From positions 62,001 through 126,000 of the forward strand of contig JAIUPL010000002.1 in assembly GCA_020160935.1 (NCBI GenBank): 64,000 bases of DNA, in the 5' to 3' direction. Shown in pieces: positions 6,031-52,013 of the stretch. The notes under the pieces were generated by a model, which did no database searches, was not told where the DNA came from, and worked only from the letters and a program-made list of their open reading frames with translations. This DNA comes from Bacteroidota bacterium (GTDB lineage Bacteria; Bacteroidota; Bacteroidia; Chitinophagales; Saprospiraceae). A program made the position numbers and the translations under genes. How positions within the stretch are numbered: the stretch's first letter is position 1; each line of letters starts with the position of its first letter.

Positions 6031-6693
6031 ATGCAGAACAAACCCGAGTACACGCGGACGCTTCCGCATTATCACCATGTGGGCGCTACTTTTTTTGTTA
6101 CGTTTCGCCTTTACAATTCCCTGCCCAAGTCTTTTCTTGATGAATTGTCGGCCTGGTACAACCAGGAAAAAGAACGAATCGAGCAAAGTTTACTTTCCTC
6201 TGAACGTCTAAAAGCCCTTGCCCTGCTGCAACGCGACTATTTCCGTCGATTTGATCGGGCACTCGACCCATGCCTGCACGGCCCCACTTTTTTGAGCCAG
6301 CCTGCTATTGCTTCGGAAGTGGTCAGGCAGTTAAAGCGTTTCGATGGCCAGTACTACCACTTGCAGGGCTACACCATTTTGCCGAACCATGGCCATATCC
6401 TGCTCGATTTTTCTGCGCAAGCCGATCCTGCCGGTCAAATAAATAGGGACACGTACAAAAACCTCGACTATGTGATGCAACGGATCAAAGGGGCATCTGC
6501 GAGGGCCGCCAACCTGATTCTGAAAAATACCGGGACACCGTTTTGGCAGCAGGAGTACCACGATCGGTATATCCGCGACCGTCGGCACCTGCTGGCTGCT
6601 GTCGATTACCTGAAACAAAACGCAGTGTCGGCCCGCTTATGCCGCCATTGGCAGGAGCATGCGTTTACATGGATTCATGAACGATTCTGGTGA
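6031..6693 (+). CDS. REP-associated tyrosine transposase (Y1_Tnp, IS200-like)
   Basis: 220 residues, within the usual size of RAYTs. The HUH-type metal site is read as LPNHGH (H120, H122) in the typical YTILPNHxHIL context. The middle position is Gly rather than the usual hydrophobic residue. The conserved tail FWQQEYHDRYIRD (about 171-183) supplies the candidate catalytic tyrosine (Y176 or Y180), followed by VDYLKQNAV. RAYTs cut and move single-stranded REP hairpins and are usually single-copy and domesticated. A TATTTG element lies about 30 nt upstream. The flanking hairpins are the obvious substrates. Confidence 0.88.
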   Translation: MQNKPEYTRTLPHYHHVGATFFVTFRLYNSLPKSFLDELSAWYNQEKERIEQSLLSSERLKALALLQRDYFRRFDRALDPCLHGPTFLSQPAIASEVVRQLKRFDGQYYHLQGYTILPNHGHILLDFSAQADPAGQINRDTYKNLDYVMQRIKGASARAANLILKNTGTPFWQQEYHDRYIRDRRHLLAAVDYLKQNAVSARLCRHWQEHAFTWIHERFW

Positions 6694-40860: not shown

Positions 40861-42564
40861 TTATTGAATAAGTTGCCCCAGATGATTGGTTCGAATAAAA
40901 AGCGTAGAGCCGCTTTCGTCTTCGCCGCCCAAAATAAAACCGTCGTCGCGCGTTTGCGCGAGGTAGTACAATCTTCTCGACAGGGTACCTGCCGGAAACG
41001 TTTGTGGCGCAACAGCCGCCGCGCCGTCGCTGATTTTCAATTGAACAAGGTAAGGTAGAAATGCCACACCATCAGAAATGCCGCCGGCTAATGCCAGCCG
41101 GCCTTTATTGGTGACAAGTCCTTTGTACAATACCGTATTGGGCAATGAAACCGGCCAGCCGGACAGGTCATTCCCGGAAGCATCCAGTTTGAACACCTTG
41201 CCCGAGGCGCCATCGGTACCGATCAACAGGTACGTGTTGTTTTCCAGTGCAATCATATCGGAGGGGATAAAATTGCCGAGGTTGCGTTCCGTTCCAATCA
41301 CATTAAAATCGGCATCGAGGCGTGCAAAAAACGTGAAAGCGCCTTTTTTACCCGTTATCACGTAGCCTGTACCATTGTTGGCAATGGTGTAAATGCGGCG
41401 TTGTTCCTGCGTGTTGGTTTCACTTCTTACCATGGCATTGCCCACCTTGCTCAGTCCGCCGCTGAGTTTCATGTAGTAAAATCGTTTGGGCGGCCCACCT
41501 GCGCCAAAATCCTGGTCGCCTGCTATGACGTAGCCTCCATCGCGTTCGATGACAAAACGGCCGGTTTCATTTCCATTGCCTACGCCGGGAATGTTGTCAA
41601 ACAAGGGATTGGGGAAATTTTGCACCGTGAAATCGGATTTCAGCGTGAGGGCATATATGTCGGTATTAATGTCCAGAGGATTCAGGGTATTTTCTACATT
41701 ACCCACCAGGATATAACCGTTGGCTGTTTTTCGGGTGCAAAAGATGTTCTGGGCCCCGTTGATGTATGCCGAACCTATAGGATAATCGACCAGATTGGGA
41801 GAGCCTTGCAAAGCGCCGGTTGCTGAAATTTTTACCAGATAAAGCGCATCGGAGGTACTCGTAGCCGCCCGAAAACTGCCATCGGAGGCTTCATCCGTGA
41901 GCACGGCCCGTTCGAACACACCGGCAGCCACGTCGGATGTGAGCAAGAATGTTTTGGGCTCAATACGCACCCAAATGGTATCCCGATCCTGATCGCCGCC
42001 TTGTCCGACGGCTTTCAATACCACCATAAACGTGTCGGGGCGAGCATAGGCATGCGAAGCCGTAGCGCCTGTGGCGGTGCCGCCATCGCCAAAATCCCAG
42101 CTGTAGGAAACGGCGTTCTGGCTGGCATTGGCGTCAAAATTGACCGTTGTAACAGGCATGGTGTACACGGCAGGCTGGGCAGTGGTGATCTTGGCAACCG
42201 GCGCCGGAAACCCGATGGTGAGTGGTTTGGTTGGAACGACCTCATTTGCACAGGCATCCTGTGCAATGACCAGCGATACCTGATACGTACCTGCCTGCGC
42301 ATAGGTGTGCTCCGGTTCCGCAGCGTCCGAGGTGCTGTTGTCGCCAAAATCCCAGGTATAGCGCAGGTCGGAGCCACCCACCACCGTAGCCAGAAAACGA
42401 TAGGTACAGCCAGACGAACAATTGCCGGTATCCGTACGAATAAATTCAAAAGAAGCCGATTCCACACAGTTTATGTCGGGTGTGGTGGCATAATCACAAC
42501 CGCCAGAAAAGGTGGCGATGGCCATGACAGCAAGATATATGCTGGGAAAAAGTACGTTTTTCAT
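40861..42564 (-). CDS. PKD-domain surface lipoprotein
   Basis: 567 residues. Signal peptide with a lipobox-like FSGGC (Cys 23). Two PKD domains follow (about 35-120 with YTWDFGDNSTSDAAEPEHTY, about 122-205 with YSWDFGDGGTATGATASHAY). Residues about 210-567 form a repeated beta unit resembling a beta-propeller (GGYVIAGDQDFG, GYVITGKK, GRLALAGGISDG, DGFILGGEDESG). It is likely an outer-membrane surface binding protein. 20 bp from the VWA gene downstream and 10 bp from the protease gene upstream. Confidence 0.85.
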   Translation of the reverse strand: MKNVLFPSIYLAVMAIATFSGGCDYATTPDINCVESASFEFIRTDTGNCSSGCTYRFLATVVGGSDLRYTWDFGDNSTSDAAEPEHTYAQAGTYQVSLVIAQDACANEVVPTKPLTIGFPAPVAKITTAQPAVYTMPVTTVNFDANASQNAVSYSWDFGDGGTATGATASHAYARPDTFMVVLKAVGQGGDQDRDTIWVRIEPKTFLLTSDVAAGVFERAVLTDEASDGSFRAATSTSDALYLVKISATGALQGSPNLVDYPIGSAYINGAQNIFCTRKTANGYILVGNVENTLNPLDINTDIYALTLKSDFTVQNFPNPLFDNIPGVGNGNETGRFVIERDGGYVIAGDQDFGAGGPPKRFYYMKLSGGLSKVGNAMVRSETNTQEQRRIYTIANNGTGYVITGKKGAFTFFARLDADFNVIGTERNLGNFIPSDMIALENNTYLLIGTDGASGKVFKLDASGNDLSGWPVSLPNTVLYKGLVTNKGRLALAGGISDGVAFLPYLVQLKISDGAAAVAPQTFPAGTLSRRLYYLAQTRDDGFILGGEDESGSTLFIRTNHLGQLIQ

Positions 42565-42574
42565 GTGTGGTGGT

Positions 42575-43780
42575 TTATTTGTGGAGGATTACTTTTTTGG
42601 CGCGTTTTGACTTCGGATGCGTATGAATCAGATAAACAATCAGGCTTCCCGTCGCCACGCCTACGCCCGACCAGAGCAGGTATTGGGCCTTTTTGTGCCT
42701 GTCGTTGGCATCGTTGTACACGGCTGTGCGGTTGGTGCCTGCATACACGGCCGATTGCGGGTTGGGTGAAGCGAGGTAAATGTTTTTATAGGTAGAATAG
42801 GCATCCTGTTCTTTTCGATAGCCAATGCCTGCGGCTACGAGTCCGCCTACAAAGCCCGTCAGTTCCAGCGGCAGCACCCAGCCGCCGGGCTTTTGCGGCA
42901 CTTTGCCCGGGGCAAAGGCGCCTACGCCAATCTCGTCGGGGTGCATCACCTGTTCGCGGGTGTAGCCATCGCGCTCGAAATACCAGATCACCGTGTGGTT
43001 GCCAGCATGTGAGGAGTCGCCTACCCAGTCGAGGGTTTGGGGCACCAGCGATGAATGCGGGTCGATCATGAGGAAAGGCCGGAACGTCTGCACATTTTTG
43101 TTGGGTGGCACCTTGTACGTGATTTCCATGCGCCGGCCTTTGATGGTGGCTTGCGCATTTCTGGCCCAGTTGTACGACACCTTGCCCGTCAGTCGCGGTT
43201 CGAAGCGCAGGGCTGCATCGCGCGGATGCTGGCCCCGGGCTTTCCAGGCGTCTTCCTGGGCATCCCAGCCGTCGCCCACTTCAAACTCCCGATCACTCGC
43301 TGGCGGGTACACGCCGCCCGAGAGATCCTGGCCCATGTTGCGAAACCCGGCCAGCGTCTCTTCCCGCGTAGCCCCGAGCGTGTTGAGTACACGGCCGGCA
43401 AAATTGTCGGCATTGAGTTCGAGTTCCCTGCGCACGGCAGGGTTGCGCTCCTGAAGGTCATGCCCCAGAATGAGGTGACCGAGTTCGTGGGCCAACAGGC
43501 TGTACACGGCCCATTTGGTTTGCGCATTTTTCTCAAACTGTGTGACAAATGCCGGATTGTATCGGATGTAATTGTTAGAGCCGTCTCTGTATGCTTCTGC
43601 ATTGCGTGTAGCAGTAGATTCCTGCAGTTTGATGACAATGGCTGAACTGGAGGCGTCCTTGATTTCTTCCAATATCAGCCGCAGCCGTTCGTGCGCAGCA
43701 GGGTTGGCAGCAACGGGGTTCTGTGCCTGCAATGCCGAAGCAAGGCAGAACAGCGAGACAATCATGGGGAATATTTTCAT
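42575..43780 (-). CDS. Secreted HExxH metallopeptidase with C-terminal membrane segment
   Basis: 401 residues. Signal peptide to about 20. Zinc motif LLAHELGHLILGH (H98, E99, H102) with downstream ELELNADNFAG giving ExxAD (E121), the third ligand arrangement of M48-like enzymes. The middle (about 150-285) is a beta-rich region that may bind substrate. A hydrophobic stretch (about 300-320) and another (about 365-385) suggest membrane association. It lies 5 bp after the EAD gene and 10 bp before the PKD gene. All catalytic residues are present, so it is predicted active. Confidence 0.82.
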   Translation of the reverse strand: MKIFPMIVSLFCLASALQAQNPVAANPAAHERLRLILEEIKDASSSAIVIKLQESTATRNAEAYRDGSNNYIRYNPAFVTQFEKNAQTKWAVYSLLAHELGHLILGHDLQERNPAVRRELELNADNFAGRVLNTLGATREETLAGFRNMGQDLSGGVYPPASDREFEVGDGWDAQEDAWKARGQHPRDAALRFEPRLTGKVSYNWARNAQATIKGRRMEITYKVPPNKNVQTFRPFLMIDPHSSLVPQTLDWVGDSSHAGNHTVIWYFERDGYTREQVMHPDEIGVGAFAPGKVPQKPGGWVLPLELTGFVGGLVAAGIGYRKEQDAYSTYKNIYLASPNPQSAVYAGTNRTAVYNDANDRHKKAQYLLWSGVGVATGSLIVYLIHTHPKSKRAKKVILHK

Positions 43781-43785
43781 GGCAT

Positions 43786-44499
43786 TTATGGTAAAAGGTG
43801 GATCAATGCGACCGTAATCCGGTTGAGTTGTCGCTGGGCATCCGCCGGGGCAATCAGGTTGAGTTCACGGTTGCGTATTAGTTGGGTGTATTCGCCCTGC
43901 AGCACGGCAATGTCGGCCTGTATCTTGTCGTCAGGCGACTTGCTTTGCTGCAGGGTGGAAAAGGCTCGGGGGAGTTCGCCGGCGGAAACGGCCTCCAGCA
44001 GGGACTGGCGAAAAGCGTCGCCTTGCTGCATGGCCTTCTTGAGTTGTTCGCCGGCCATTTCCAGGATTACTTTTTGGTCGGGTTGAAAAATGGGCACTTT
44101 CCGCCAGAAAAACAGCCCGAATCCTGCCAGCAGCAGCATATTGAGCGGCGCCAGCCACCAGTACGAACCCTGGAAATAGGCAATCAACCCGTGATCGTTT
44201 TGCAACATATTCAGCAGGGTGAGCAATACCAGCACGAGGTACAGCCACAACAGGGCGAGGAGCAGGTAGTGTGCCGCAGGCGGCGTATGCTGCCCGGCAT
44301 ACCGGCTCAGCAGCGCGCCGCCCAGCAGCATAGCCAGGCCGGGTAGCAATAAAACTCCCGCCCAGCACCAGACGACTGGCGCGGCGTCGCCCAGTTTGCC
44401 GGTTATGGTTTGTACAAAAACCATCAGCAACACCAGGGTCGTACAAACAGCCCAGGGCCACAGGGAAAAATGCATCGTTCGGGAAAGAGGCTTCCACAT
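43786..44499 (-). CDS. Four-helix membrane protein with C-terminal EAD11-like domain
   Basis: 237 residues. Four membrane helices (about 13-32, 42-64, 76-97, 112-130) put both termini in the cytoplasm. The C-terminal about 75 residues are helical and end LNLIAPADAQRQLNRITVAL. This nearly repeats LIAQADADLERNRITKAL of the protein at 464-1369 and fits effector-associated domain 11. EADs recruit partners with the same domain. Position: 5 bp before protease 1 and 19 bp after protease 2, at the heart of the operon. No NTPase or other EAD gene is in this operon. Confidence 0.72.
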   Translation of the reverse strand: MWKPLSRTMHFSLWPWAVCTTLVLLMVFVQTITGKLGDAAPVVWCWAGVLLLPGLAMLLGGALLSRYAGQHTPPAAHYLLLALLWLYLVLVLLTLLNMLQNDHGLIAYFQGSYWWLAPLNMLLLAGFGLFFWRKVPIFQPDQKVILEMAGEQLKKAMQQGDAFRQSLLEAVSAGELPRAFSTLQQSKSPDDKIQADIAVLQGEYTQLIRNRELNLIAPADAQRQLNRITVALIHLLP

Positions 44500-44518
44500 G
44501 GTGCCGAATATTGGGTCG

Positions 44519-45736
44519 TTATTTTTTGATTTGATCGAGGATGCCTGCTTTTTGCAGGTGATCTTCTGCGCGGGCGCTCAGGCGGCATTCCTCATGGGCC
44601 TGTTTGTTGCTTTCCTCGGCCCTGAATTCGTACACCAGCCCGCGTACCGAATGGCCGTTTACAGATTGTTTGGCCAGGTAGTCGGGCAGGACATTGCCAC
44701 CGCGTTGCAGCCATTCCTTGCAGCCGTCGACGCTGACGCATCCGGGCTCATACTCCAGGGCCGACTGGTTGGTGACGACAAAGACAAAAACCCGGAAATA
44801 AGTAGGGTCGGGGAAAAACATCTTGCTGAAATAGTCCCAAACCCCGTCAAAACTGGGGCGGGGCGGGTAGTCGAGCCAGCGGTTATTCCCGGCAATCGAC
44901 GACAGTGCAGGCGCAGCGCGAAACTGTTCGGCGGCTGTAACGATGGCGAAACCATTTTTCACAGCAAAATACCTGCGGTCGGTGTAGCCCTGTTTGTCCA
45001 ATGCCCTGCAAATGCGGAAATTGATGTCGCCCAGTACCGCACAGCCTTCAAAGCGGCGGGTATTGAGGGTGCATTCCTTTGGGCAGCCGCTTTTTTTGAA
45101 ACGAGGCAGAGGGCTGTTTTCTACATCGGAAGGGTTGTTGCCAAAACTCAACCCCTTGTTCAGGGCTTCAGCCGTATTCCAGCCTGTGGAAATGCCGGTT
45201 TTGCGCTCTTTGAAAGGGTAGGCGGCCAGGTAAGAGTACGGGAACGCTTCTACCTGCTCCAGCAACACATCCAGGCTGGTGAAATCGCCGATTTTTTTGA
45301 CCACACTCGCAGCAAAGCGGTCGGCTTCGGCTTCTTCCCGGATTCTTTTTCGGGCGTCCAGGCTGTGTGCCAGGTGCAAATGCCCGATTTCATGTGCCAG
45401 TAAAAAATAGGCCCAGGGACGCCGCATGGCCATCAGCGATTTCAATTCGCCCCGGTTGTACAGCAGGTATTTGCCTTTGGCATCTGTTACGGCTGCCACG
45501 CTCGATACCCGGGCGTTCATGACCTGAAACGAAGCGCGATCCACGCCTGCCAACTGGCAGATCGTATCTACCATTTTTTCAACTTCAGCATCATTGCTGC
45601 CCTGCCGGGGCTGAGTGCCGAAAAAAACACCGGTGTACAAACAGCGGTGTACCGTGTCTATTTGAAGTGCCTGGGAAAACAGGGGAAATGCCAGCACGGC
45701 GCAAATGGCAAAAACAGAGAGTTTTTTCGTTGCCAT
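44519..45736 (-). CDS. Secreted HExxH metallopeptidase, first gene of operon
   Basis: 405 residues. Signal peptide to about 22 (LFSQ). Zinc motif LLAHEIGHLHLAH (H115, E116, H119), third ligand in EEAEADRFAA (E135). Cysteine-rich after residue 205 (CPKECTL, GCAVLGD, GCVSVDGCKEW), unlike protease 1. Similar spacing of helix and ligands to the protein at 42575-43780 but low similarity elsewhere, so these are two distinct M48-like enzymes of one operon. The transcript probably starts in the AT-rich gap 45737-45850. Confidence 0.82.
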   Translation of the reverse strand: MATKKLSVFAICAVLAFPLFSQALQIDTVHRCLYTGVFFGTQPRQGSNDAEVEKMVDTICQLAGVDRASFQVMNARVSSVAAVTDAKGKYLLYNRGELKSLMAMRRPWAYFLLAHEIGHLHLAHSLDARKRIREEAEADRFAASVVKKIGDFTSLDVLLEQVEAFPYSYLAAYPFKERKTGISTGWNTAEALNKGLSFGNNPSDVENSPLPRFKKSGCPKECTLNTRRFEGCAVLGDINFRICRALDKQGYTDRRYFAVKNGFAIVTAAEQFRAAPALSSIAGNNRWLDYPPRPSFDGVWDYFSKMFFPDPTYFRVFVFVVTNQSALEYEPGCVSVDGCKEWLQRGGNVLPDYLAKQSVNGHSVRGLVYEFRAEESNKQAHEECRLSARAEDHLQKAGILDQIKK

Positions 45737-45858
45737 AGTATGGAGGTTTATCCCTTATATGTACATAAAACACCTTCCCGTGAACAGGATTTATTAAAAA
45801 AAAATTGAATTTTATTTTTGAAACAAGCCTCTTTCTGCTGATGCTCCCAACGTTTTTG

Positions 45859-45866
45859 TAAATTTG
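45859..45866 (+). promoter_or_regulatory. -7 element TAAATTTG before the precursor peptide
   Basis: Exact TAnnTTTG, 47 nt upstream of ATG 45913. No clear TTTG -33 box at the usual spacing. Confidence 0.45.
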
Positions 45867-45912
45867 GGTTGTCTACCGTGCATATTGTTCACCAGACAAC
45901 ATTCTTATTGTT

Positions 45913-46137
45913 ATGAAAATTTCCAAATCACTCTTGCACGCCATCTTTGCTGGCGTCACTGTTGCGGCCACCGCTACTGCCTGCGAACATCAGAAAAAAG
46001 AGACGGCTCAAATTCACTTTCCTTCCTGCCCTTCCGATTGTGATATTGACCATGCTATTGATCTGCGAAATGAGGGGAATGGAGAAGGTGAAGAGGCGCC
46101 AGTACCCGGCAACTGCCCTGCCTGCGGAATGGGTTAA
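45913..46137 (+). CDS. Candidate MNIO-modified precursor peptide
   Basis: 74 residues. The N-terminal part MKISKSLLHAIFAGVTVAAT with C24 looks like a secretion signal with a lipoprotein-type cysteine. The rest is acidic and Gly/Pro-rich with cysteines at 39, 43, 68 and 71, in the contexts FPSCPSDCD and GNCPACGMG at the very C-terminus. A DUF692/MNIO enzyme gene follows on the same strand. The pair fits a RiPP of the kind in which MNIO enzymes oxidise Cys residues in precursor tails; signal-bearing precursors are known in some MNIO classes. The precursor role is inferred from size, cysteines and context. Confidence 0.7.
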   Translation: MKISKSLLHAIFAGVTVAATATACEHQKKETAQIHFPSCPSDCDIDHAIDLRNEGNGEGEEAPVPGNCPACGMG

Positions 46138-46241
46138 TAATTTCATTTTTTGAGGTGTTTGTCCGGGGGTATCTGTTGGGTATCCTTCGGACATTGGTTT
46201 GTTTTCACCCGGCAACCGCCCCGCAAACCCACACACCCCAC

Positions 46242-46350
46242 AGGGCGTTGCCCTGGGCTATTGGGTACGCCCTTTCAGGGCTCTCTCGATTTACCCTCTC
46301 ACTCTCTCACCTCTCACCCTCTCACATCTCTCACCCTCTCACCCTCTATC
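46242..46350. repeat. Small palindrome plus CTCTCACC words before MNIO gene
   Basis: AGGGCGT (46242-46248) and ACGCCCT (46267-46273) form a hairpin. From about 46290 CTCTCACC/CTCACCCT words run to the base before ATG 46351. They would form an unusually pyrimidine-rich leader. Confidence 0.75.
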
Positions 46351-47484
46351 ATGCTTTACCCTTCCATAGCCTGCAACCTCGATACCGATATTCTGCTGGC
46401 GGCGCTTCCGTTGCTGGAATCGGAGCGGGTGCAGGCACTGGAATGGTCGTTTGATACCCTGTATCAGGTGCGGGATATTCCGGCGTGGTTCGACGAGTTG
46501 CTGCTCGAATACGGGCGCGCAGGGAGGTTGATCGGACATGGCGTGTTTTTTTCACTGTTTTCAGGCCGCTGGTCGCCCGAACAGGCCCAATGGCTGGAGC
46601 ACCTGAAAAAGCAGTGCAGTGTTTTTCAGTTCGACCACATTACCGAACACTTCGGTTTTATGACGGGCGCCGATTTTCATTCCGGTGCGCCGATCAGTCT
46701 GCCATTCACCGCAAGTACGCTGGCTATCGGGCATGACCGGCTCCGGCGCATTCAGGAGGTGTGTGCCTGCCCGGTGGGGCTGGAAAATCTGGCTTTTGCC
46801 TATTCCCTGGAGGAGGTGAAACGGCATGGAGATTTTTTGAACCGACTGGTAGAACCTGTAAATGGCTTCATCATCCTGGATCTGCATAATTTATATTGTC
46901 AGGCTCACAATTTTGATATGCCAGCCGAGGAACTGCTGGATTTGTACCCACTTGAACGGGTGCGGGAAATACACATTTCCGGCGGGAGTTGGGAAAATTC
47001 ACCCTTGCTGCCCGAACGCCCGGTGCGCCGCGACACCCATGACGACGCTGTGCCAGCAGAGGTGTTCCAATTGCTGAGAAATACCATTCCGCTGTGCCCC
47101 AACCTGAAATTTGTGGTACTCGAACAAATGGGCACCGCCCTGCACACCGAAGCCAATCGCAGGCAGTTCAGACAGGATTTTGATGCCATGCATACCATTT
47201 TGGAGGCATTCGATGCGCCTGCCCAATCTACTGGGAATACATTTGCGCCTTTTTCATTGCCTGCATTGGGTACTCCTTTGGAAGATGCCGATCTGTACCG
47301 GCAACAACGTCAGTTGTCGGAAATACTGGAAACAGCCGACTCCTATGAAGCAGCGCGGCAGATGCTGGAAAATTCCGACCTCGCCGGAACCGCCTGGGGA
47401 ACAGAACACTGGGCGCCATATATGCTGGAAACGGCGATGCGCATCGCCCAAAAATGGCAAAAGGGCTTTCAGCAGCCTGCCTGA
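46351..47484 (+). CDS. DUF692-family MNIO (multinuclear non-heme iron oxidative enzyme)
   Basis: 377 residues from ATG 46351. TIM-barrel metal ligands are in family order: IGHG (H63), FDHITEHFGF (E99/H100, the SEHL motif), GLENLAF (E145/N146), ILDLHNLYCQAHNF (D177, N180, H186), REIHISGG (H208), RDTHDDAVP (D228, H230) and VVLEQM (E258). The usual family length is about 270-300. This enzyme has about 100 extra C-terminal residues (about 275-377, helical, ending QKWQKGFQ) that could replace the separate peptide-binding partner common in MNIO clusters. The predicted substrate is the Cys-rich peptide encoded just upstream. Confidence 0.85.
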   Translation: MLYPSIACNLDTDILLAALPLLESERVQALEWSFDTLYQVRDIPAWFDELLLEYGRAGRLIGHGVFFSLFSGRWSPEQAQWLEHLKKQCSVFQFDHITEHFGFMTGADFHSGAPISLPFTASTLAIGHDRLRRIQEVCACPVGLENLAFAYSLEEVKRHGDFLNRLVEPVNGFIILDLHNLYCQAHNFDMPAEELLDLYPLERVREIHISGGSWENSPLLPERPVRRDTHDDAVPAEVFQLLRNTIPLCPNLKFVVLEQMGTALHTEANRRQFRQDFDAMHTILEAFDAPAQSTGNTFAPFSLPALGTPLEDADLYRQQRQLSEILETADSYEAARQMLENSDLAGTAWGTEHWAPYMLETAMRIAQKWQKGFQQPA

Positions 47485-47559
47485 AGGCTGCGCAACAACA
47501 TAATACCAAGGGAGAGCCGCACGTTTGACATTCATTTCACTTGTAGCACTCCCGAAGCC

Positions 47560-48534
47560 ATGAAAAAGATTGTTGTTCTGATGCTGGGCGTTTTTCCTGC
47601 GTTCAGCCCCTGCCATGCGCAGGATGCCCCACCAGCCCCTTCGTCCTATCCACCCTGGTATAAACCGCCGGGCGAGCCATACCCAAAGGAATTAAAAGAT
47701 ATTAATGCGGATGGTCTGGTTGATACCATCCAAAGCGATCAATCATCCGGAAGTGGATTCAGCGGTACTTTTTTCAGTATTACAAATGGGAAAACAGGAG
47801 AACAGTACACGGTGGAGCCGGAATACTGTTTCTGCTCCTTGTACAGCCGCATTGATATTCCACCTGCACTGCTGAAACCTGAAAATGCAGGATTCAAAGC
47901 ATACCTCGAACAGCATGTTTTTTCCAGCCCCCGACGACAAGATCCCGATGCATCGCTGCAATGGATTCTGGAAAGCAGGGCCTGGCAGAAGGAGATTTCC
48001 GACAATCTTTACTTTGACACACGTATACACCTCGGACTGAAATGGCACAACCTGCCCGTTGAAATTCCGTCTGATTATTACACGGAATATCAGGGCGAGG
48101 GTGATACAAAGGCCTGTTTTCTGGATTATGCCGGCAGAAACCACTACCTGAATTGGAAAGGTGATACATTACAGATACGCTATTCCGATGATTCCTTGCG
48201 TATCCTGTCGACGATGCACGGCATGCTGCTTCAAAAGAATAACCGCTATGCATGGATTTTTGTAACTGATCCGGAAGTGACAGGCGCTCCCGACAAACTC
48301 CGTTGGGCCTCCATTGGTCAGGTTAAAGTAGTGGGCTCCTGGCTATTGATGCGGCATCACAGGCCTGTATTTTCTGATGATAAATTTTTTATGGTCGACC
48401 TGCAAACAGGTAAATGTGCCGGATTCAAGATAGATTTACCGCTTGATATGGATGCTTTGATGAATGCCCCTGCGCCCGAAGTTTTGCAAAACCAGGTGTT
48501 TTTGCGTATTCTTCAGGCATTCAAAAATATCTAG
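47560..48534 (+). CDS. Secreted protein of unknown function beside MNIO gene
   Basis: 324 residues. Signal peptide to about 20 (CHAQ). A Pro-rich stretch is followed by DINADGLVDTI (about 48-58), a calcium-loop-like motif. The rest is beta-rich with many aromatic residues and no family I recognise. It starts 75 nt after the MNIO stop and ends 14 nt before the PQQ dehydrogenase ATG, so it probably shares their transcript. It does not look like an MNIO partner protein (DUF2063-like) or a peptidase. Confidence 0.7.
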   Translation: MKKIVVLMLGVFPAFSPCHAQDAPPAPSSYPPWYKPPGEPYPKELKDINADGLVDTIQSDQSSGSGFSGTFFSITNGKTGEQYTVEPEYCFCSLYSRIDIPPALLKPENAGFKAYLEQHVFSSPRRQDPDASLQWILESRAWQKEISDNLYFDTRIHLGLKWHNLPVEIPSDYYTEYQGEGDTKACFLDYAGRNHYLNWKGDTLQIRYSDDSLRILSTMHGMLLQKNNRYAWIFVTDPEVTGAPDKLRWASIGQVKVVGSWLLMRHHRPVFSDDKFFMVDLQTGKCAGFKIDLPLDMDALMNAPAPEVLQNQVFLRILQAFKNI

Positions 48535-48548
48535 CAAGACTTATTTAC

Positions 48549-50654
48549 ATGAAATCAATCCTGTTCAGCACCCTCCTTTGCAGCCTCTTCCTGATCGGTT
48601 CTGATGGCCCTAATTACGAACGCTGGGAAGAATACCTCGGCGGCCCCGATCGCAACCATTATTCAGCCCTTACACAGATCAATACCGGAAACGTCAACCG
48701 ATTGCAGGTAGCCTGGACCTACGAGGCGCCGGACACGGGCCAGATGCAGATGAGCCCGATCATTGTCGATGGCGTCCTGTATGGCGTCACGGCAGGCGTT
48801 CAGGCTTTTGCCCTAGATGCGGCTACCGGAAAGGAAATATGGCGTTTTGGCGACCCGCTAAAAGCCTGGCACAGCACCAGCCGGGGCGTGTCATATTGGT
48901 CGGATGGCAAGGAAAAACGTATCCTTTTTACCGCAGGCCCCAATCTCTGGGCACTGAATGCCACAACCGGCAAGCCCATTGAATCATTCGGGAAAAGTGG
49001 CGCAGTCGATCTGCATGAAGGCCTGCCGCGTCGGGCCCAGGGTAAGTTCATTATTTCCAATACACCCGGCACCATTTTCGAAAACCTGATTGTCATGCCC
49101 GTTCGGGTGTCGGAAGGTAATGATGCGGCGCCGGGCGACATTCGCGCTTTCGATGTGGTAAGCGGCAAACTGGTGTGGACATTCCATACCATTCCTTACC
49201 CCAATGAACCGGGTATGGAAACCTGGGAAAACAAATTTGCTTTTCAAAACAATGGCATCGGCGGGGCCAACAACTGGGCCGGGATGGCCGTCGACCGGGA
49301 AGCAGGCATCCTGTTTGTACCGACAGGTTCGGCCGCGCCGGATTTTTATGGAAATAACCGCAAAGGCGACAACCTGTATGCCAACTGCCTGCTGGCACTC
49401 GACGCCCGCACGGGAAAACGCCTTTGGCACTACCAATTTACGCACCACGACATCTGGGATCGCGATTTGCCTGCCCCGCCCAATCTGTTGCAGGTAAAAC
49501 GAAACGGCGCAGTGGTCGACGCTGTCGCACAAATCACCAAACAGGGTTTTGTATTCGTATTTGACCGGAAAACCGGCGCACCCTTGTTTGATATCAAGGA
49601 AATGCCCGTGCCGGCATCCAGTCTCGAAGAGGAGCAAGCCGCGCCGACGCAGCCTGTGCCCGTATTGCCCCGACCCTTCGCCCGGCAGTCGGCCGACCTG
49701 ACAGAAAAAGACCTCAGCCCTTATGCGCCCAACAAGAAGGAATTGTTGAACCTGTTCAATACCCTCGACAAAAGGATGTATGCGCCGCCCAGCCTGGAAG
49801 GTGCATTGTTGCTTCCTGGCTACGACGGCGGTGCAGAATGGGGCGGCGCAGCAGCCGATCCTGCCGACGGTATTTTATATGTAAACTCCAATGAAATGGC
49901 CTGGATGCTGCAAATGCAGTCCGCAGGTGGTGAAAAAAGTGCAGGAAACCTCTCGCCTGGCGGAAAAATATACCAGGAGAATTGTGCGTCCTGCCACCAG
50001 CCCGACCGCAGCGGACTGGCCGCCAGCGGATTTCCTTCCCTGCTGAAAATACAGCAGCGCAGCCGCGATTTTACCACACAAATGATCGAACAGGGTAAAG
50101 GTATGATGCCGGGTTTCCCGCAGATTTCCGGTGAAGCGCGAAAAAACCTGCTGGACTTCCTGTACGGTACGGAAAAAACAGAGAAGCCCGCATTCGAAAT
50201 TGTTACATTGACCAACCCCAACAATACGACTTTGTACCAACATACCGGCTACCACAAATTCCTGGACAGCAACGGATTGCCAGGTATTGCGCCGCCCTGG
50301 GGTACCCTGAGCGCCATCGACCTCAATACGGGCGAATACCGCTGGCGCATTACACTCGGTGATACGGAATCGCTGCGGGAAAAGGGCAACCCGCCAACCG
50401 GTTGTGAAAATTACGGTGGACCGGTTTCCACCGCAGGTGGGTTGCTGTTTATTGCGGCCACCAAGGATGGGAAATTTCGTGCTTTCGACAAAAAAACGGG
50501 GGCTTTGCTATGGGAAACCACCTTGCCTGCTGCCGGATTCGCTACGCCTGCTACTTATGAGGTGAAAGGCAAACAATACGTTGTAGTAGCCTGTGGCGGT
50601 GAAAAACTGGGCACGCCAAAAGGAAATAAAGTGGTGGCGTTTTCGCTGCAATAG
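48549..50654 (+). CDS. PQQ-dependent quinoprotein dehydrogenase with internal heme-c domain
   Basis: 701 residues. Weak signal peptide (to about 20). Propeller start WEEYLGGPDRNHYSALTQIN and LQVAWTYEAPD..., repeated tryptophan docking motifs (GKEIWRFG, GKRLWHYQF, GALLWETTL). A cytochrome c insertion at about 465-560 has CASCH (C479, C482, H483) and MMPGFPQ as candidate axial Met. This is the membrane/periplasmic quinoprotein glucose- or alcohol-dehydrogenase class; the substrate is not readable. Electrons would pass from PQQH2 to heme and the respiratory chain. PQQ synthesis genes are not in the window. Confidence 0.9.
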   Translation: MKSILFSTLLCSLFLIGSDGPNYERWEEYLGGPDRNHYSALTQINTGNVNRLQVAWTYEAPDTGQMQMSPIIVDGVLYGVTAGVQAFALDAATGKEIWRFGDPLKAWHSTSRGVSYWSDGKEKRILFTAGPNLWALNATTGKPIESFGKSGAVDLHEGLPRRAQGKFIISNTPGTIFENLIVMPVRVSEGNDAAPGDIRAFDVVSGKLVWTFHTIPYPNEPGMETWENKFAFQNNGIGGANNWAGMAVDREAGILFVPTGSAAPDFYGNNRKGDNLYANCLLALDARTGKRLWHYQFTHHDIWDRDLPAPPNLLQVKRNGAVVDAVAQITKQGFVFVFDRKTGAPLFDIKEMPVPASSLEEEQAAPTQPVPVLPRPFARQSADLTEKDLSPYAPNKKELLNLFNTLDKRMYAPPSLEGALLLPGYDGGAEWGGAAADPADGILYVNSNEMAWMLQMQSAGGEKSAGNLSPGGKIYQENCASCHQPDRSGLAASGFPSLLKIQQRSRDFTTQMIEQGKGMMPGFPQISGEARKNLLDFLYGTEKTEKPAFEIVTLTNPNNTTLYQHTGYHKFLDSNGLPGIAPPWGTLSAIDLNTGEYRWRITLGDTESLREKGNPPTGCENYGGPVSTAGGLLFIAATKDGKFRAFDKKTGALLWETTLPAAGFATPATYEVKGKQYVVVACGGEKLGTPKGNKVVAFSLQ

Positions 50655-50655
50655 A

Positions 50656-50952
50656 TCATACCAGCAACTCCAGTTGCCGGAACACGGGGATTAATTCCCG
50701 GCCTTTTTCACTCAGCGCATATTCAATGTGAAGCGGCTTGAGGCGTACCACGTTTTTGTCGAGCAGTTGTGCCGTTTCCAGTTCTTTCAATGCCAGCGCT
50801 ACCGATTGCTTGCTGGCGCCTTTCAATTGACGCAGCAGGCTGTTGAAACGCAGCGGGCCATCCTGCGCCAGGCGAAATATTTGCGGCTTCCATTTGCCGG
50901 ACAACATTTTTAACAATCCCTCTGCGGGGCATTCTTCTTGCATGGTGGTCAA
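50656..50952 (-). CDS. HxlR-family winged-helix regulator
   Basis: 98 residues (alternative start 50943). HxlR signature: ECPAEGLLKMLSGKWKPQIF, LRFNSLLRQLKGASKQSVALALKELE, HIEYALSEKGRELIPVF. The N-terminal Cys (C8) matches the redox-sensing Cys of YodB/HypR-type members. Divergent from the DsbA-like gene with 71 bp between starts, so regulation of that gene and itself is likely. It converges with the PQQ dehydrogenase (1 bp between stops). Confidence 0.9.
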   Translation of the reverse strand: MTTMQEECPAEGLLKMLSGKWKPQIFRLAQDGPLRFNSLLRQLKGASKQSVALALKELETAQLLDKNVVRLKPLHIEYALSEKGRELIPVFRQLELLV

Positions 50953-50965
50953 CTTTTTTTGACTA

Positions 50966-50997
50966 ATTGTGCAGCCAATCCGACGCCTTTACCTTTG
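50966..50997 (+). promoter_or_regulatory. Promoter of DsbA-like gene
   Basis: ATTG at 50966-50969, 20 nt, TACCTTTG at 50990-50997. This fits the TTTG / TAnnTTTG consensus and predicts transcription start near 51004. It supports ATG 51024 over the internal ATG 51114. HxlR could bind here. Confidence 0.55.
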
Positions 50998-51023
50998 CGT
51001 CAATAAAAAGCATAACCCGCAAC

Positions 51024-52013
51024 ATGCTGCGATTGTTCTCATTTTTCTTCACCGTGCTGCCGGCCATGCTTGGGGCCCAGTCGGCACAGCACACACCCGC
51101 CATTACCCGTACTATGAACAGCAACCCACTGATTTGCGACCCCGAGGAAGGCATGTGTATCATGCCGGGCCCGACGGCCACAGGCAGCGAACCTGCGCCT
51201 TCAACAGGAGTTAAAATCGTGTATTTCACCGACCCGATCTGCTCCTCCTGTTGGGGTATCGAGCCGCAACTCCGCAAACTCAAACTGGAATATGGCGACA
51301 ACCTCGATATTGAATACCGCATGGGCGGGCTGCTGCCTTCCTGGGATGTGTACAACAGCGGCGGCATCAGCAAGCCTTCCGATGTAGCGCACCACTGGGA
51401 TGAAGTGAGCCGATACTACGATATGCCGATCGACGGCGACGTATGGCTGGAAGACCCGTTGCCCTCCTCCTACCCGCCTTCCATCGCTTTCAAAGCGGCG
51501 CAGATGCAGGACTCCAAAAAAGCAGTTGTGTTTTTGCGCGAACTGCGCGAATTGCTGTTTTTGCAGAAAAAGAATGTCACGAAGTGGGAATACGTACAGC
51601 AGGCTGCCGAAGCGGCCGGACTGGATGCAAATCGCCTGCAAGCAGATATGGAAGGCCCTGCCAAAAAGTTGTTTGAAGATGACCTGGCGTTGGCCCGACA
51701 AATGGGCGTGCGCGGATTTCCAACGCTGTTTTTCAGCAATGAAGCAGGACAACAGGAAAAAGTGTACGGGGTAAAACCTTACGAGCAGTTTGAACGGGCG
51801 GTATTGCAAATATTCCCGACTGCCAGCAAAAAGGCCATCGATCCTTCGTGGCAAAGCCTGTTCGGACATTACCCGACCCTGACAGCCAAAGAATTTTCGG
51901 TGCTGTCGAATACGCCCAGGGTCGAAGCGGAACGGCTTTTGCTGGCACTGAGCCAATCAGGTCACTTGAGTGTGCTGGAAACCAAAAACGGGCGTATGTG
52001 GCAAAAGATTTGA
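51024..52013 (+). CDS. DsbA-family (FrnE-like) thiol oxidoreductase
   Basis: 329 residues from ATG 51024, which gives a signal peptide (LRLFSFFFTVLPAMLGAQ); starting at 51114 would give a 299-residue cytoplasmic form. Active site YFTDPICSSCWGIEPQ (CSSC), then YRMGGLLPSWDVY and cis-Pro region RGFPTLFF. A winged-helix-like tail (LTAKEFSVLSNTPRVEAERLL) is typical for the Bacteroidota family. Divergent HxlR regulator upstream. The codons ATT TGA at the end lie inside the first copy of a palindromic repeat. Confidence 0.88.
   Translation: MLRLFSFFFTVLPAMLGAQSAQHTPAITRTMNSNPLICDPEEGMCIMPGPTATGSEPAPSTGVKIVYFTDPICSSCWGIEPQLRKLKLEYGDNLDIEYRMGGLLPSWDVYNSGGISKPSDVAHHWDEVSRYYDMPIDGDVWLEDPLPSSYPPSIAFKAAQMQDSKKAVVFLRELRELLFLQKKNVTKWEYVQQAAEAAGLDANRLQADMEGPAKKLFEDDLALARQMGVRGFPTLFFSNEAGQQEKVYGVKPYEQFERAVLQIFPTASKKAIDPSWQSLFGHYPTLTAKEFSVLSNTPRVEAERLLLALSQSGHLSVLETKNGRMWQKI

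Follow-up and report, generated by a model that had tools for sequence, protein, structure and literature searches.

The gene pair at positions 45913-47484 of the window (the whole 64,000-nucleotide stretch of Saprospiraceae DNA analysed here) very probably constitutes a module of the DybA/DybH type, that is, of the DAG-RiPPs described for Dyadobacter crusticola (PMC12636315, bioRxiv Nov 2025). It fits each sequence-level feature of these DAG-RiPPs and is therefore placed as a member of the described kind, so that in enzyme, core and lipid anchor it is typical of a system that was described only very recently. What we have here is probably a new variant of this known system, with a second ligand-like site in the linker of the precursor. 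We infer the chemistry and the lipidation from characterised relatives. The features of the locus are the following:

45913..46137, + strand: precursor gene, 74 aa, DybA-type, ChrA_rel_RiPP family (ORF; NF050125 54.9 bits, cut-off 40)
45913..45981, + strand: predicted lipoprotein signal peptide, residues 1-23, MKISKSLLHAIFAGVTVAATATA directly before the C (leader conserved in 65 full-length precursors)
45982..45984, + strand: lipobox C24, where lipidation is predicted and the mature peptide would begin (invariant in 12/12 precursors of alignment A2; analogy with DybA)
46015..46053, + strand: linker motif H35-x3-C39-x3-C43-x3-H47, candidate metal site (conservation in A2; 19/68 precursors; spacing scan)
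46114..46134, + strand: core CPACGMG (C68, C71), predicted MNIO substrate motif (CP.CG[ML]G ends 61/68 precursors; genome-wide pattern search)
46138..46350, no strand: spacer with a tandem repeat of the ACCCTCTC type (46293-46347), not coding (Tandem Repeats Finder; diverged in locus L001)
46351..47484, + strand: MNIO of the ChrH/DybH subfamily, 377 aa (PF05114; NF050165; structure model with nearest folds TglH and MbnB)
47251..47481, + strand: C-terminal helical domain, residues 301-377 (predicted helices 313-328, 332-340 and 356-369; 59/60 loci cover 311-370)

According to PMC12636315, the minimal clusters of Bacteroidota outside Chryseobacterium consist of a precursor and an MNIO. DybH functions alone, no obvious partner being encoded, and a C-terminal helical bundle of ~7.8 kDa is found in its enzyme family, while in Cyanobacteria the bundle is a separate protein, MelHc, which was required in the tested case (PMC12636315). 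The same source reports that DybH, ChsH and HymH yield a -4 Da product without a partner, that the DybA product is by NMR a macrocycle with a hydantoin and a free thiol, and that DybA is triacylated at the lipobox Cys, its additional conserved Cys. Background is found for ChrH in PMC10214503 (preprint PMC9934569), for MNIOs in PMC12452194 and for related chemistry in the review PMC11002830.

The ORF at 45913-46137 (+) encodes exactly the 74-residue Cys peptide ending in NCPACGMG that the original prediction had picked out, residues 68-74 being CPACGMG (the CPxCGxG motif), and the ChrA-like resemblance suggested for it is borne out by the NF050125 score given above; all 12 A2 precursors match this ChrA_rel_RiPP family. 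There are five Cys in the peptide, the lipobox C24, C39, C43, C68 and C71, of which the prediction had rightly named C68/C71 but missed C39/C43 together with the two flanking His. The N-terminus, taken at first for a secretion-type one, holds up as an export leader but not as a plain secretion signal, since it reads as a lipoprotein signal with lipobox C24. This lipobox is ATA-C24 in the window, and a loose lipobox pattern fits 58 of the 65 full-length precursors. The leader of these 65 appears more uniform than a signal peptide should require (K5 in 54, L7 in 61, L8 in 58, A10 in 50 and G14 in 54), its conservation being readable only from position 5 on, as starts were picked by a rule on residues 1-4, and it may be a second recognition element.

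The comparison set comprised 68 distinct precursors from 58 of the 60 MNIO-holding loci (the L192 peptide duplicates that of another locus, and L196 lacks a precursor); near-duplicate or truncated loci were left out (L001, L005, L006, L007, L009, L010 and L012), and the L068 precursor, cut at a contig end, was still counted. Seven of the 68 deviate from the CP.CG[ML]G core, a conservation that is partly due to selection of the set, as it was gathered by a looser form of the C-terminal Cys motif or by the leader plus a C..C end. The core also gave a match to PF19335 (HMBD) covering 13 residues around CPACGM (15.3 bits, E 0.02), under the gathering cut-off of 23.6 and found in one of the 12 A2 rows; descent of CPACGMG from an HMBD domain is thus an idea only, given this single sub-threshold match. 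One A2 row also matched NF050180 (E 0.00062), and the predicted fold of the precursor was uninformative (pLDDT 50). Two or more acidic residues stand at +2 to +7 after the lipobox Cys in 38 of 58 precursors; a surface-export signal after C24 was nonetheless discarded for the window, where the residues EHQKKE depart from the K-(D/E)2 rule cited in PMC5080379. Two distinct precursors are present at 10 of the 60 loci (L002, L062, L070, L074, L078, L167, L169, L170, L181 and L189). At L078 (genome G056) a 103-aa precursor ending in NCPACGMG (6076-6387, - strand) has no clear lipobox and adjoins a lipobox-bearing one, perhaps two export types within one locus.

The enzyme matches PF05114 (MbnB_TglH_ChrH, E 5e-30) and NCBIfam MNIO_ChrH (NF050165, 383 bits over positions 10-361 of 363). 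The latter score does not reach the equivalog cut-off of 600, so that the enzyme does not count as a chryseobasin maturase sensu stricto. It is 60-62% identical to three Chitinophaga relatives. Its likely start is the ATG at 46351, around which the conservation with 25 relatives begins, giving 377 aa. The TTG at 46150 (the listed ORF of 444 aa) was rejected, because the intervening spacer contains a repeat and shows no coding conservation in the sister locus L001. Modelling from an alignment of ten sequences (the window's and nine homologues) gave the MNIO fold with a mean pLDDT of 87, the nearest solved folds being TglH (8hi7, 8hci), MbnB (7fc0, 7tcr, 7tcw, 7dz9) and 3bww. The full set of barrel metal ligands claimed for this DUF692 enzyme is present. 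The residues aligned to the nine TglH iron ligands named in PMC10880893 are H63, H100, E145, D177, N180, H208, D228, H230 and E258, paired by profile alignments (H100 after the 3bww alignment, since the TglH one slips by one there), and each is identical in 60/60 loci, the window included. Comparison of the window with L001 gave a dN of 0.085 and a dS of 0.569 for the precursor, and values of 0.067 and 0.738, respectively, for the enzyme; both are therefore under purifying selection.

With 377 aa against a Pfam model of 263 positions, the enzyme is indeed about 100 residues longer than the usual core. The linker before the C-terminal domain is poorly conserved (median identity 0.30, residues 271-300), and the domain itself comprises three helices in the predicted model. 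It is no unusual fusion, being found in 59/60 loci; at the sole locus without it, L196 (genome G356), one TGA lies inside the match and the open piece ends before the domain. L196 and L034 (genome G031) are enzyme remnants with no detected precursor; the latter is a match to 62 positions, and complete pairs occur in G273 and G276 of the same genus. The extension had been proposed to stand in for a leader-binding partner. A part in the enzyme's function agrees with the separate, required MelHc of Cyanobacteria, but leader binding is not what matters for the described relative, for which GFP carrying just the seven residues CPACGMG as a tag was enough (PMC12636315).

The genome of the window has one PF05114 match and one ChrA_rel_RiPP match, both at the locus. 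Among 100 genomes of the family (own included), MNIO_ChrH was matched at E 0.001 or better in 21, at full length in 19, the matches in the other two (G031 and G062) being short or weak, and ChrA_rel_RiPP was found in the same 19. The pairing of a RiPP precursor with an MNIO (NF050125 and full-length NF050165 matches) is thus shared by 19/100 family genomes. Conservation in relatives, suggested earlier as a check, was found for the Cys motif as well as for the gene pair. At the DNA level, a CPxCG[M/L/V]G-plus-stop pattern gave 20 sites, each next to the MNIO, in 17/100 family genomes, all of which belong to the 19; its reversed control gave none (0/100). A profile built from 12 precursors found matches in 45 of 298 family genomes, with an MNIO at the same locus in 45/45, although the profile used H-C-C-H-bearing rows and favours finding more of these. 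Among 248 genomes of the order, precursor matches of E 0.001 or better occur in 19, 12 of them over the cut-off; four of the weakest (G119, G175, G258 and G268) were left out of the locus set. Of 395 genomes of the phylum, 26 match MNIO_ChrH at all and six match it strongly (E 1e-90 or better), the core pattern appears in five, all among these six, and two exceed the ChrH equivalog cut-off (686 and 707 bits). Within the window's own genus the pair is patchy, with a precursor match in two of six genomes (G000 and G785, none in G040, G286, G826 and G857).

The two genes are separated by 213 bases. The ACCCTCTC repeat lies directly before the enzyme ATG, and at this place L001 carries a similar but more regular array, with an inverted copy upstream. 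A promoter and terminator scan gave a single site of each kind, fewer than the shuffle means of 2.1 and 2.3. The absence of a partner gene noted at the outset extends to the relatives: no recognisable one is encoded, and no partner-like gene is common to 26 clustered loci. This clustering, which took genes of at least 70 aa (many precursors are shorter), recovered the MNIO at all 26 loci and the precursor at 9, and besides these two no gene cluster at more than 3/26, in scattered places. Conserved transport, regulation or metal genes as neighbours were thus discarded, none going beyond 3/26 loci. Four clusters reach three loci and include HxlR-type regulator, CBS-like and TonB-like genes, the last two labelled from the look of the sequence only; the HxlR-type cluster joins the window to two Chitinophaga loci, at differing distances and sides. 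L001 is collinear with window positions 41284-51999 except for 47478-48403, which holds most of the ORF at 47560-48534 (+). This ORF (324 aa, secreted-looking, no Pfam match) was rejected as a third gene, being absent at the collinear place in L001. Pfam found no chrI (DUF1772), chrE or chrP domains among the eight neighbouring proteins at window positions 40861-52013. A membrane-type protein with effector-associated domain EAD11 (43786-44499, - strand; E 9.5e-13) sits between two genes (42575-43780 and 44519-45736) with HExxH-like motifs and sub-threshold metallopeptidase matches, and the group adjoins a PKD-domain protein; this is possibly a conflict-type cluster.

The linker motif H-x3-C-x3-C-x3-H sets part of the family apart. 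First noticed among 40 precursors (12 with CxxxCxx[DNE]H), it stands between lipobox and core in 19 of the 68 precursors, at 17 loci, a count that is not a population frequency; linker shuffles averaged 0.004 and never exceeded 1. The L001 precursor, outside the set, bears it too. In A2, C39, C43 and H47 are invariant and H35 is kept in 11/12, and in the L061 precursor a Cys replaces the first His. We also scanned all spacings from 1 to 14 with no motif preset. Over the 68 precursors, C-C at +4 was found in 32 (3.0 expected), C-H at +4 in 21 (4.6) and at +8 in 24 (4.1), H-C at +4 in 25 (4.6) and at +8 in 26 (4.0), and H-H at +12 in 19 (2.3). Peaks appear at 4, 8 and 12 alone, with no other spacing above the shuffle maximum, the counts being mutually dependent and the shuffles blind to ancestry. 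In the 19 motif-bearing peptides, positions 2-4 and 6-8 vary widely and position 12 is always Asp, Glu or Asn. The motif is absent from 48/68 precursors in all, among them those of Chitinophaga and of family f20 and two beside enzymes over the ChrH cut-off. It persists in two precursors with a drifted core (CIACGRG or CLDCGRG; L002 and L167 of genome G752). The motif loci fall in two GTDB families (f1 and f12) and need ten state changes on the enzyme tree, against 14.9 for shuffled labels (1/500 shuffles as low), at least four changes being forced by well-supported branches of a tree whose bootstrap had not settled. Such a scattered distribution indicates that the motif is ancient with frequent losses, or has moved repeatedly, and that it is retained while its surroundings change. 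Compared with solved structures, the A2 profile had five weak matches, mostly zinc fingers (best E 0.00019, no passing stretch), which we treated as Cys/His matches.

As for the pair itself, small lipoproteins are common in Bacteroidota, and the small ORF might be one of these, or a chance ORF, beside an enzyme with another substrate. This is barely credible in view of the curated family match, the purifying selection and the close co-occurrence of core motif and enzyme. An S-methylated product of the chryseobasin type (+10 Da) in place of the free thiol is quite improbable. It would agree with MNIO_ChrH as the best NCBIfam match of the enzyme, but the score is far under an equivalog cut-off that two of the 395 phylum genomes exceed, the precursor is of the lipobox and not the SPI type, and the products of the Chitinophaga, Dyadobacter and Hymenobacter relatives are reported as unmethylated, although one Archangium enzyme made a mixture (PMC12636315).

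For the linker, the main rival takes C39/C43 as a periplasmic disulfide or redox pair tuned by the histidines, not as a metal site, which we consider possible though doubtful. The C-x3-C spacing is the commonest of all (32 of 68 precursors against 19 with the full H-C-C-H), and a DsbA-like thioredoxin gene is found at 50967-52013; this gene, however, belongs to none of the clusters common to three or more of the 26 loci, the flanking His recur at exactly four residues in both directions, well above expectation, and the one precursor with Cys for the first His shows the kind of swap that is frequent among metal ligands. It is unlikely that the pattern is kept for structure or recognition (a helix face, a receptor or export) with no metal bound. 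Residues at i, i+4, i+8 and i+12 would lie near one side of a helix and motif position 12 is also acidic or Asn in 19/19, but the non-ligand positions 2-4 and 6-8 are free to vary and the fold prediction of the peptide (pLDDT 50) gives no information. The recurrence of His/Cys at every fourth residue, four in all, and the one replacement of the first His by Cys point to a metal site, and a candidate copper or zinc site is our best guess for the linker.

By analogy with the characterised relatives, the MNIO would act alone in the cytosol, with two or three irons and O2, recognising the C-terminal CPACGMG of the precursor and removing four electrons from C68/C71 and their neighbours, to give a macrocycle with a hydantoin and a single free thiol (-4 Da). 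Next, the lipoprotein pathway would place a diacylglycerol onto C24, remove residues 1-23 and possibly acylate the new N-terminus, so that a membrane-anchored peptide of 51 residues remains. Between anchor and ring, H35-x3-C39-x3-C43-x3-H47 would make up another functional site, with a metal as its likeliest occupant, a step of pure inference. We tentatively propose that in Saprospiraceae-like Bacteroidota the DAG-RiPPs may be two-headed membrane metallopeptides, in which the anchor, the H-C-C-H copper or zinc site and the thiol of the thiohemiaminal ring would jointly capture or pass metal at the outer membrane. The function of lipid-anchored MNIO RiPPs is called unknown in PMC12636315, and a second His/Cys site of strict spacing, present in some of the precursors, leads directly to the hypothesis of metal handling at the envelope. 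If true, this would link the ChrH/DybH branch of MNIOs to the copper-related bufferin, oxazolin and methanobactin branches. We found no description of the motif in the consulted main-text portions of PMC12636315 or in the one paper (PMC6189053) that a literature search for the motif brought up.

Among known systems, the CuA site Hx34Cx3Cx3Hx2M (PMC6189053) shares the C-x3-C-x3-H spacing, a resemblance in spacing only, as CuA sits in a folded cupredoxin domain with its upstream His 34 residues off, not 3. The window precursor and the A2 rows have no cupredoxin Pfam match, and no Met stands at +3 after H47. The lipidated bufferins and oxazolins (NedA; PMC12636315, PMC12452194) are also MNIO-modified Cys peptides, some with lipoprotein signals, and are copper-linked, but unlike the window peptide they use EGKCG or Buf-domain cores, a partner protein and another MNIO subfamily. 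Closer is the ChrA/ChrH system of chryseobasin (PMC10214503), with a CPACGMG core, the same enzyme subfamily and the same domain layout, although ChrA is longer and has an SPI-type leader, its cluster includes chrI, chrE and chrP, its product is S-methylated (+10 Da), and the window enzyme lies below the ChrH equivalog cut-off. The window peptide differs from DybA, which has three Cys, one besides the core pair, in having five, with C39/C43 in addition and set in the H-x3-C-x3-C-x3-H linker. With DybA/DybH the window pair shares a lipobox precursor, a C-terminal CPACGMG, and a position directly before a ChrH-subfamily MNIO with a helical bundle and no partner gene.
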